Positions 16,913 to 55,417 of a stretch of DNA of 64,000 nt are shown one piece after another; the stretch's first letter is position 1; each line of letters starts with the position of its first letter. Under the pieces are notes generated by a model. That model was not told the DNA's origin. It saw nothing but the letters and a program-made list of their open reading frames with translations, and made no database searches. The position numbers and the translations under genes were made by a program. This DNA is from Salinigranum rubrum (GTDB lineage Archaea; Halobacteriota; Halobacteria; Halobacteriales; Haloferacaceae): positions 3,348,001 through 3,412,000 of the forward strand of contig NZ_CP026309.1 in NCBI RefSeq assembly GCF_002906575.1. The letters are read 5' to 3'.

Positions 16913-16939
16913 GATATATATCGATAGCCAAATTTATAG
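16913..16939 (+). promoter_or_regulatory. TATA box and GATATATATC palindrome before the AbrB-PhoU regulator
   Basis: AATTTATAG (16931-16939) is centred about 27 bp before ATG 16963, fitting leaderless transcription. Immediately upstream is the perfect 10-bp palindrome GATATATATC (16913-16922), a position suited to an operator, perhaps for autoregulation or for activation of the divergent pst2 operon. Confidence 0.5.
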
Positions 16940-16962
16940 TGGAGTGCCTATCACCAGTTGGC

Positions 16963-17964
16963 ATGGTGGAAACGCGCAAGGTGCAGGTCACCGGTGGCTC
17001 GACGTACACCGTCTCGATTCCGAAGGGATGGGCGACGGAAAACGGCGTCTCGGCGGGCAGCGAGGTCGAGTTCTACCCGGAGGGCGACTCGCTGTTCCTC
17101 ACCCCGCGGTCGGAGGAGGAACGGACGGAGGGGACCCTCGACGTCACCGACCTCGAAGGCGACGAACTCACGCGCGCGGTGATGACGATGTACGTCTCCG
17201 GGTTCGACATCATCGCCCTCGAGAGCAACCGGATCACGACCGACCAGCGCCGCACCATCCGGAAGGCCACCCAGAGCCTCGTCGGCCTCGAAGTGCTGGA
17301 GGAGACGAGAGACAGAGTCGTCATCCGCGACCTGCTCGACTCCTCGGAACTCTCTATTCACAACGCCGTCACGCGGATGCGGCTCATCGCGCTGTCGATG
17401 CTGGACGACGCCCTGCTGGCGCTCGCCGAACTCGACGAGGACATGGCGCGGGACGTCATCCAGCGCGACGACGACGTCGACCGCCTCTGGATGGTGGTCT
17501 CGCGCATCTTCCGGGCCACCCTCCGGACGCCGAAGGCCGCCGAGGAACTCGGCCTCCCGCGGGAGATGTGTTTCGACTACCAGTCCGCGGCGCGCCAACT
17601 CGAACGCATCGCCGACCACGCGACGAAGATCGCACACCTCACCTTGAACCTCGAGAAGGCGGTGCCGGAGGACATCGTCGAGGCGCTCGAAGAACTCCGC
17701 GAAGACGCCGCCGAAGTCGTCAACGGCGGGATGGACGCCCTGTTCGAGGAGGACAGTTCGGAGGCGACGCGTCTGGCGAACGAGGCGCGCGAGTCGGTCC
17801 AGGACATCGACGAACGCGCCCGGGCCATCGACGAGTACCTCCGCGAACTCGACCCCGCCCGCGCGCAGGTGCTCGGCCTCATCGTCGACTCCGTCTCCCG
17901 CTCCGCGGACTACGGCGGTAACATCGCCGAGACGGCGCTGCAGAAGGCGGCACCGACACCGTGA
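16963..17964 (+). CDS. AbrB-PhoU fusion regulator, divergent from pst2
   Basis: A 333-residue protein starting MVETRKVQVTGGSTYTVSIP: an AbrB-type swapped-hairpin domain (about 1-45) followed by PhoU-like helical bundles with an RQLERIADHATKIA metal-binding segment near the middle and a second bundle ending at SRSADYGGNIAETA. ATG 16963 is preferred over an upstream in-frame ATG because of the TATA box 27 bp before it. It is a paralogue of the regulator at 8236-9261; having one beside each pst operon suggests paired regulation. Ligand and targets are not visible. Confidence 0.87.
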   Translation: MVETRKVQVTGGSTYTVSIPKGWATENGVSAGSEVEFYPEGDSLFLTPRSEEERTEGTLDVTDLEGDELTRAVMTMYVSGFDIIALESNRITTDQRRTIRKATQSLVGLEVLEETRDRVVIRDLLDSSELSIHNAVTRMRLIALSMLDDALLALAELDEDMARDVIQRDDDVDRLWMVVSRIFRATLRTPKAAEELGLPREMCFDYQSAARQLERIADHATKIAHLTLNLEKAVPEDIVEALEELREDAAEVVNGGMDALFEEDSSEATRLANEARESVQDIDERARAIDEYLRELDPARAQVLGLIVDSVSRSADYGGNIAETALQKAAPTP

Positions 17965-18127: not shown

Positions 18128-18508
18128 TTACTCGAAGACCGCGTTGACCTGGCCGTCCTGTCCGGGACGTGAGGTGACGCGCGCGGTCTTCTCTTCGCCG
18201 TCGACGTCGACGGTGATGATCGCGCCCTTCGTGATGATGTTCCGTCGCTTGTAGTTGACGTTCGCGGGGTTGTTCTCGACGCCGAGGATCGTCGCGTGGA
18301 CCGTCTCGGGGCCGTCGGAGACCTGTGCGACGTTCGTCGAGAGCGCCCGGGTCTTCGTCGCGTTCCCGCGCGAGTCGATGGTCTGAAACCGCGGCTCGTC
18401 GACCGTCGTCTCGCTGGGTTCGCGGCCTAGCTGGTAGCGTTTCTTGTTCCGGGAGGGTTTGATCCGACCGCCCGTCCGCTTCGTCATCGAGCGTCCCTGG
18501 TACTTCAT
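18128..18508 (-). CDS. rps8e: 30S ribosomal protein S8e
   Basis: A complete 126-residue archaeal/eukaryotic-type S8e of the small ribosomal subunit. It has the basic N-terminus MKYQGRSMTKRTGGR and the conserved GRKRRYQLGREP-like segment, here KNKKRYQLGREP, and ends ...GQVNAVFE. A TTCAAGTAG TATA-like element lies about 25 bp before the ATG. It stands alone, converging with the AbrB-PhoU gene. Confidence 0.97.
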   Translation of the reverse strand: MKYQGRSMTKRTGGRIKPSRNKKRYQLGREPSETTVDEPRFQTIDSRGNATKTRALSTNVAQVSDGPETVHATILGVENNPANVNYKRRNIITKGAIITVDVDGEEKTARVTSRPGQDGQVNAVFE

Positions 18509-18784
18509 ACCGGTAGAAGAGCTAGCGACTACTTGAATCGTACGACTCGCTCGCTACGATGGAGAGGCGTGCGAACAGGAGTCAGGTCGGTGGCGTCTGT
18601 GGGTCTGTACGTAGTGGGCGAGTAGAGGGGAGAGAAGGGCGTTCGTGAACGTGTCTGAGAGAGCGGAGAACTCGCAGTACACGGGCACAGCGAGGCCACA
18701 GCCTCCCCAACCGATTCCGTCGCTCGCTCACTCAGTCATCCACCGAAGCGACTCCGTCGCTTCAAGCCTTCACTCGCTACGCTC

Positions 18785-19094
18785 GTGAAGACCTCGCGCG
18801 TGAGTCGCGCGGCGAAACCGCGTGACGTCACGCGCCACCGCCTCGTCCTGTTGCGGTCGGCGCGCGGGAGCAGCGCGGGACGCGGAGCGTCCCGCTGGCC
18901 ATGGGGGCGACTCATGGGTCGCCCGCAGACGAGTGAACGAAGGGAACGAGTGGCGCGCGAGGTCTTCGTGAATGAGCGGAGCGAATGAACGAACGGCTCG
19001 GAACAACGGAGTTGCTCCGGTGGGACTGCTCGGGGCCCCGTCCGCGAGCGACCCGGTTGGGGAGGCACGAGGCAGCGGTCCACCGCGCCCGTGT
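18785..19094 (+). repeat. Intergenic repeat element, copy A
   Basis: It shares ordered blocks with the element at 55202-55393. GTGAAGACCTCGCGCG (18785-18800) and GCGGTCGGCGCGCG (18853-18866) start 68 bp apart in both copies. A closing block of about 50 bp (19044-19094) contains TGGGGAGG...CCACCGCGCCCGTGT. Copy A carries about 117 bp more than copy B, mostly hairpins. No ORF or transposase is visible. Confidence 0.7.
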
Positions 19095-19102
19095 GTCGTG
19101 CG

Positions 19103-19159
19103 TACTCGTTCCTGACCTGTGTACTCGTTCCTGACCTGTGTGCTCGTTCCTGAACTCGA
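19103..19159. repeat. 19-bp tandem direct repeat, three units
   Basis: TACTCGTTCCTGACCTGTG occurs at 19103-19121 and 19122-19140 without a mismatch, then a third degenerate unit at 19141-19159. It starts 9 bp after repeat copy A. There are no unique spacers, so it is not a CRISPR array. Confidence 0.85.
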
Positions 19160-19265: not shown

Positions 19266-19715
19266 ATGAGCATGGAGGTCACCGTCGCCGTCCCGTTCCG
19301 CCAGCACGGGACGGACCGACTCGGCGAGGGCGAGTTCGTCGTCGCGCTGTCGCTCGACCGCGAGTGGTTCTCGCCGGACCAGGCGAAGCGCCTCATTGAC
19401 ATCGCCGCCGGTCGGGGCCTGGTCGAACGCGACGGCGGCGACCTGGTCGCGCAGTTCTCACCCGGTTCGGTCGAGGTTCCCGAGGGGTTCACGCCCGACG
19501 AGTCCATCCTCCAGTCGCAGTCGACGTTCGAGCGACTCCTGGGCGCCATCGTCGCCGACGGCGTCGAGAAACAGGAGGCCGTCGCTGGCGTCAACCGCCT
19601 CCAGCGCGACCTGGGCGTCACTATCGAGGCCGCCGCCGTCCTCTACGCCCGCCGTCGCGACATCGACATCGGAGGGCTCGCCGAGGAGGTTCGGCGCGGA
19701 CTCGTGGAGGGGTAG
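19266..19715 (+). CDS. DUF2240 family protein
   Basis: A 149-residue soluble protein. It starts MSMEVTVAVPFRQHG and has the haloarchaeal DUF2240 pattern: an N-terminal winged-helix-like part (FSPDQAKRLIDIAAGRGLV) and a C-terminal helical part beginning FERLLGAIVADGV. Members are conserved across haloarchaea, with unknown function. The second ATG (19272) is an alternative start. A GTTAATCC TATA-like box lies about 27 bp upstream. The stop TAG is separated from the next ATG by one base, implying translational coupling with the following gene. Confidence 0.75.
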   Translation: MSMEVTVAVPFRQHGTDRLGEGEFVVALSLDREWFSPDQAKRLIDIAAGRGLVERDGGDLVAQFSPGSVEVPEGFTPDESILQSQSTFERLLGAIVADGVEKQEAVAGVNRLQRDLGVTIEAAAVLYARRRDIDIGGLAEEVRRGLVEG

Positions 19716-54983: not shown

Positions 54984-55201
54984 ACTGCGCGGAACCCTCG
55001 TCGCGGTGAGAGCCCCATGAAACCCTCGCACGGTAGCAGGAGTGGTCGCCGAACGTAGCCGAGGTATCGAAACGGGCACGGGAGGAGGAGATGCTGATAG
55101 ACGAGACTTGAGACAACGGGCGCGGGGGAGCCACACCACCGGAGCGACTTCGTCGCCGCTGTGCGCCGGCTCCCAGCGGAACCGCCGGTTCCGCCCGGCT
55201 T

Positions 55202-55393
55202 GTGAAGACCTCGCGCGTTTTGGTCGCGGGCGGAGCCACAGCCGTCACGCGACACCGCCCCACGTCGTGGCGGTCGGCGCGCGACGAGCGAGCGAACGGA
55301 TGTGAGTGAGTGAGCGCGCGAGGGCCTGCTCGCGCCTCCGGGCGCGAGCGACCGGGTGGGGAGGTCCGAGGCTGCGGTTCACCGCGCCCGTGT
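55202..55393 (+). repeat. Intergenic repeat element, copy B
   Basis: Ordered blocks shared with 18785-19094: GTGAAGACCTCGCGCG (55202-55217), GCGGTCGGCGCGCG (55270-55283, also 68 bp after the first), and a 50-bp closing block (55344-55393) with GGTGGGGAGG and CCGCGCCCGTGT. It is shorter than copy A because most of the hairpin-rich middle is absent. Confidence 0.7.
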
Positions 55394-55417
55394 ACGACCG
55401 GTCGTCTCGCATCTCAC

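Follow-up and report, generated by a model that had tools for sequence, protein, structure and literature searches.

The repeat element between the genes for ribosomal protein S8e and a DUF2240 protein of Salinigranum rubrum is, with a probability of about two in three, a composite element from a separate family of short, non-coding intergenic repeats that spans the haloarchaea and functions much as the REP/BIME/REPIN systems of bacteria do. In its behavior it resembles a dispersed non-coding parasite or an element of genome architecture. The family is best read as a pan-haloarchaeal mosaic resembling REP/BIME, whose non-autonomous repeats were formerly, or are still rarely, mobile.

Extent and anatomy of the element

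The window (the whole 64,000-nucleotide stretch of DNA analyzed) lies on the 4.25-Mb contig C1 of a 4.97-Mb genome (G000) with five further contigs of 0.72 Mb together. The first-pass annotation had described an intergenic element of about 400 bp; the intergenic location was right, but alignment of the copies extended the element to ~18673 to 19101, and a 19-bp tandem repeat (GTACTCGTTCCTGACCTGT, 2.7 copies, 19101 to 19155, plus strand) abuts it. The flanking genes, S8e (18128 to 18508, minus strand) and DUF2240 (19266 to 19715, plus strand), are divergent, and both were reproduced by the simple codon-usage caller from which all gene calls were taken. Two spurious open reading frames across the element had neither a Pfam match nor a gene call by codon usage, and a coding reading was rejected on these grounds. 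Elsewhere in the window, positions 16939 to 17964 encode, next to phosphate transport genes, a PhoU-domain protein whose N-terminal part is a MazE/AbrB-type DNA-binding domain.

Inverted repeats at several scales had been reported from the letters, and both pairs of arms were recovered: GCCTCCCCAACCG.../...CGGTTGGGGAGGC at 18701 to 18723 with 19044 to 19066 (83%) and GAAGACCTCGCGCG... at 18787 to 18807 with 18947 to 18967 (86%). The best uninterrupted arm, of 14 nt, was equalled in 1 of 60 dinucleotide shuffles, while the single-strand fold reached -139.9 kcal/mol versus -104.9 ± 4.3 kcal/mol in shuffles (z = -8.1; 0 of 100 shuffles as good).

The repeating unit, ~95 nt long, consists of CCTCCCCAGCCGATTCG, a TC-rich part, ATCCCTCGCGCG, a hairpin, and CGCGCGCCACCGC. 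In other genera, the same succession beginning with CCGCAGCCACACCCTCCCCAGCCGATTCG and continuing through the TC-rich part, ATCCCTCGCGCG, and the hairpin to CGCGCGCCACCGC occurs alone or with different outer sequence. Because the part from CCGCAGCCACACCCTCCCCAGCCGATTCG to CGCGCGCCACCGC is solitary there, it is regarded as the fundamental unit, two of which form the Salinigranum element head-to-head. In the window these two units face each other, with modules M (twice) and N (once) between them. From the left, the outer arm (GCAGTACACGGGCACAGCGAGGCCACA; family consensus GACCGCGCGGTACACGGGCGCGGTG; 18673 to 18700, plus strand), delimited by profile and copy alignment, is followed by unit 1 (CCTCCCCAACCG ... 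CGCGCCACCGC; 18702 to 18841, plus strand), which scored 67.5 bits with covariance model R1. It is split by the first copy of module M (ACCGAAGCGACTCCGTCGCTTC...CGTGAAGACC; 18742 to 18793, minus strand), which lies between the TC-rich part and CTCGCGCG, and it contains a covarying local hairpin (GTGAGTCGCGCGG cgaaa CCGCGTGACGTCAC; 18800 to 18832, plus strand). Unit 2, the inverted partner (GCGGTCGGCGCGCG ... GGTTGGGGAGGC; 18853 to 19066, minus strand), has both modules inside: module N (18872 to 18930, plus strand), with two near-terminal palindromes (GCGGGACGC..GCGTCCCGC and GGGCGACT..GGTCGCCC), exactly between GAGC and GAGTGA, and the second copy of module M (TCTTCGTGAATGAG...CAACGGAGTTGCTCCGGT; 18963 to 19021, plus strand) after GAGG. 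A slot hairpin of unit 2 (CTGCTCGGGGCCCCGTCCGCGAGCG; 19026 to 19054, plus strand), whose loop is CTCCGT in other copies, and the right outer arm (GCAGCGGTCCACCGCGCCCGTGTGTCGTGC; 19072 to 19101, plus strand) complete the element.

The scaffold derived from 29 well-scored aligned copies begins with the outer arms GACCGCGCGGTACACGGGCGCGGTG / CACCGCGCCCGTGTACCGCGCGGTC and proceeds inward through CCTCCCCAGCCG / CGGTTGGGGAGG and CCCTCGCGCG / CGCGCGAGGG to GCGCCACCGC / GCGGTCGGCGC, with variable slots separating the conserved blocks. The junction that module M (~50 to 59 nt) occupies varies from copy to copy and lies beside CC or GG. Module N (~59 nt) was found at a second site, within a module M (G000:C1:3270978-3271047), where it is flanked by GAGC and GAGTGAA. 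Its two hosts are unrelated, and both host sites also occur uninterrupted in other copies; no target duplication is visible.

Head-to-head pairs inside outer arms are the usual arrangement in Salinigranum. Units also occur singly and, in another family, oppositely arranged, as in G152 (L264). In G152 and G068 (L264-L269, L279-L281), a genus-specific outer arm, GTTGCCACGATAGCAG / CTGCTATCGTGGCAAC, replaces the Salinigranum outer arms. In several genera (L270-L278 of G005; L044-L046), the unit follows a further conserved intergenic sequence, CCCCTTTCA(G/C)TCCCACC, which adjoins a TC-rich hairpin and is possibly another mosaic module.

Copy number, placement, and distribution

A second collinear copy had been noted 36 kb away. 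It is real, comprising the core and right half of the element at 79 to 84% in two blocks (55198 to 55395, plus strand; G000:C1:3403198-3403395), but copies number dozens and not two. The covariance model (E ≤ 0.01) returned 72 core-unit matches, all on C1, so that the chromosome holds at least 72 copies; a DNA search of the same genome also gave 72 matching pieces, all on C1, an agreement in number that is coincidental. Contigs C2 to C6 make up 14.5% of the genome, and the chance of zero matches there is ~1e-5 under uniform placement, with the matches taken as independent. With a nucleotide profile, 22 loci were found in an unbiased 800-kb stretch, and a 56-copy set was assembled from loci examined. 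The copies are ~70 to 85% alike, and thus no recent transposition is shown.

Across three genera (1.6 Mb), all 35 model matches fell between called genes, where 82 to 87% of the sequence is coding; by the nucleotide profile, which is less specific, 3 of the 22 own loci slightly overlapped a called gene end. Most copies lie 80 to 300 bp from both flanking genes, and convergent, codirectional, and divergent gaps are all occupied. The upstream gene was on the same strand in 18 and the downstream gene in 17 of the 35 cases, and a role tied to the orientation of transcription was rejected given this lack of strand bias. The flanks of copies had ~3 times as many short tandem repeats per kb as other intergenic DNA (2.6 versus 0.8), which suggests slippage beside hairpin DNA.

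Comparison with relatives revealed the unit in 81 of the 145 genomes and 26 of the 50 genera sampled from the order, the other half of the genera having no detectable unit. Many unit-bearing genomes had at least 28 matches each among the matches listed. Only 8 of 72,556 plasmid records contained the unit, all of them haloarchaeal, and carriage by phages was rejected, with no match among 50,697 phage records. A literature text search covering haloarchaeal intergenic repeats, PATE/MITE/SMR, REPIN/RAYT/BIME, and the end sequences, with subscription papers outside its reach, turned up the Haloquadratum families and bacterial REPs and no account of the present unit.

Covariation is confined to local hairpins

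Structure prediction with covariance separated the local hairpins from the long-range stems. The local hairpin of the unit had 56 double-changed cells versus 27.7 in shuffles, a value reached in 0 of 500 shuffles, and its signal weakened when partner columns were slid; the recurrent hairpin with the CTCCGT loop had 106 versus 60.8 (0 of 500). Related sequences can inflate such counts, which are strong but are not probability statements. In the unit hairpin, the stem is kept while the sequence changes. None of the four long-range stems exceeded the shuffles clearly on any measure, with double changes of 17 versus 19.2 (stem I), 0 versus 1.1 (stem II), 2 versus 1.0 (stem III), and 0 versus 0.8 (stem IV). 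That the compensatory changes are limited to local hairpins speaks against a single folded RNA and in favor of insertion-like units arranged in pairs. On the parsimonious reading, the local hairpins matter as structures, and the long-range arms are two inverted copies of conserved sequence.

Congener comparison

The gap between the S8e and DUF2240 genes measures 758 bp here, compared with 313 bp in G003, 132 bp in G002, 122 bp in G001, and ~80 to 150 bp in most haloarchaea, while G005, of another genus, has a copy within the same gap. No own copy with collinear anchors on both sides in G003 had a detectable counterpart there, and in seven cases the corresponding G003 gap, at -7 to 108 bp, could not accommodate a unit. 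By eye, the G003 S8e gap contains a short sequence similar to the outer arms, so this site may have decayed instead of never having been occupied, and at C1:3483288, G003 seemingly holds a decayed unit. These apparent remnants indicate that part of the copy difference is decay and not insertion; the sites seem to undergo both insertion and decay, and possibly renewed insertion. Intergenic sequences of congeners can hardly be aligned, so that neither exact ends nor a target duplication could be read at the 12 sites compared.

Two oppositely oriented copies, at C1:3264002 and 3265596 (G000:C1:3264002-3265846; L184:4002-5846), lie on either side of a 1.2-kb gene whose orientation is reversed compared with G001, G002, and G003, all three of which have the other order. 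The simplest account is that the gene was inverted by recombination between the inverted copies. In G002, a copy-like stretch lies at the left breakpoint only.

Relationship to known repeat systems

Bacterial REP, BIME, and REPIN sequences are extragenic, present in many copies, and built on a palindromic unit with complementary stem changes; they occur singly or as inverted pairs, form mosaics with other motifs, and have no coding capacity (PMC2817692, PMC3116915, PMC3733652). The haloarchaeal unit resembles them in its high copy number and extragenic placement (72 matches; 35 of 35 intergenic), in its palindrome with compensatory stem changes, in its mosaic association with other motifs, and in being non-coding, and it forms inverted pairs as REP doublets and BIMEs do, head-to-head in its own genome and opposite in G152 (PMC2817692, PMC3116915). 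It differs in size and composition (~95 nt that include a TC-rich stretch as well as two conserved blocks, versus a 20- to 40-nt palindrome), in its ends (CCTCCCC... and ...CCACCGC, versus a GTAG or CGTC tag), and in being archaeal and order-wide. Moreover, REP has a RAYT, whereas the unit has no cognate RAYT, the only Y1 transposase of the genome adjoining its own TnpB. Since tag and RAYT, two defining features of REP, are both missing, the unit was not filed as REP, and, with many unit-rich genomes also lacking Y1, the family is not REP by descent.

Among haloarchaeal repeats, the PATEs of Haloquadratum walsbyi are transposase-free and have near-terminal palindromes, no target duplication, and IS605-type-like ends (PMC3119063). 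Module N (~59 bp) has exactly this anatomy, being too short to code, with near-terminal palindromes and no target duplication (PMC3119063). In contrast, the ends of the element do not resemble the IS605-type ends of the ten Y1/TnpB loci in its own genome, and the unit, unlike a PATE, has conserved non-palindromic ends. SMR-A and SMR-B of the same species are non-coding repeats of ~110 bp without target duplication that lie inside other repeats, target PATEs and IS605, and are commonly >95% alike within a type (PMC3119063). Compared by description only, the unit is likewise short and non-coding, with no target duplication seen, and inserted inside repeats, but it is set apart from these homogeneous repeats, again by description, in being old, diverged, and order-wide.

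Alternative readings

The first-pass annotation had left open whether the element is a structured RNA or a non-autonomous mobile element. A structured non-coding or cis-regulatory RNA, transcribed as a whole into one multi-branched fold, would account for the strong single-strand fold, for the covarying local hairpins, and for the position of the S8e copy between two divergent promoters. That reading is nonetheless improbable, as covariation in the four long-range stems does not clearly exceed that in shuffles, copies have no orientation bias and use convergent, codirectional, and divergent sites, and most orthologous gaps lack the element. A single long folded RNA was rejected on the failure of the long-range arms in the covariation analysis, and a known RNA on Rfam 15, in which the element had no match at the gathering score (the sole hit in the window being a tRNA elsewhere) and only chance miRNA hits at E ≤ 1. 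About equally improbable is that selection and not mobility maintains the element as host DNA for chromosome organization, for instance as a topological insulator or as a nucleoid-protein or recombination site. Roles of this kind have been proposed for BIMEs (PMC3733652), and the restriction to the main chromosome (72 to 0), the strictly intergenic location mostly 80 to 300 bp from both genes, the sparse haloarchaeal plasmid matches, and the absence from phages all agree with it. However, congeners have very different numbers of copies at collinear positions, and a general architectural need should be less patchy than a unit undetectable in half of the sampled genera.

A conventional MITE, in which a canonical haloarchaeal IS has the outer arms as its terminal inverted repeats and provides the transposase that moves the element, is less probable still. 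Haloarchaeal MITEs are well known (PMC3119063), and the element is similarly short, non-autonomous, and intergenic, with long inverted terminal arms in Salinigranum-type copies. Against this, the outer arms vary between genera, being missing or different where the unit is solitary, no target duplication was read at the 12 sites compared, and no parent transposon ends were seen among the Y1/TnpB loci compared. Mobilization by IS200/IS605 enzymes was rejected, since the element had no significant match to and no ends in common with the ten Y1/TnpB loci and the abundance of units does not follow the presence of Y1, the unit-rich genomes G016, G019, G027, G044, G048, and G050 having no Y1 match. 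A non-autonomous mobile element in the broader sense, which is part of the main reading, is indirectly favored by the dispersal of the strictly intergenic copies, the congener gaps too short for a unit, the nested modules at fixed motifs, and the lack of any carried gene, while no transposase partner, target duplication, or recent identical copies were found.

Proposed mechanism and implications

For the REP/BIME-like mosaic family, past movement of the units is probable, judging from the congener gaps and the dispersal of copies. The units would have spread in the past, or may rarely still spread, through an enzyme acting in trans that recognizes single-stranded or cruciform hairpins together with conserved flank letters and inserts them without target duplication; such an enzyme need not be a Y1 transposase. 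The units may persist by landing between genes at a harmless distance and, once settled, could serve as sites of recombination and replication slippage. Tentatively, and at odds clearly below even, the family can be viewed as a pan-haloarchaeal REPIN-like system that is dispersed by a non-Y1, hairpin-recognizing enzyme, builds hairpin-in-hairpin mosaics, is largely main-chromosomal, and drives local gene inversions in archaea.

The MITEs and PATEs of haloarchaeal genomes are usually linked to known IS families. One unit that occurs in half of the sampled genera and is abundant in genomes without any Y1 points to either an unrecognized mobilizer or a retained function of the DNA. The family readily supplies inverted repeats on which recombination can act, as the one gene inversion described here suggests, and it will mislead annotation and assembly in any genome where it goes unrecognized.
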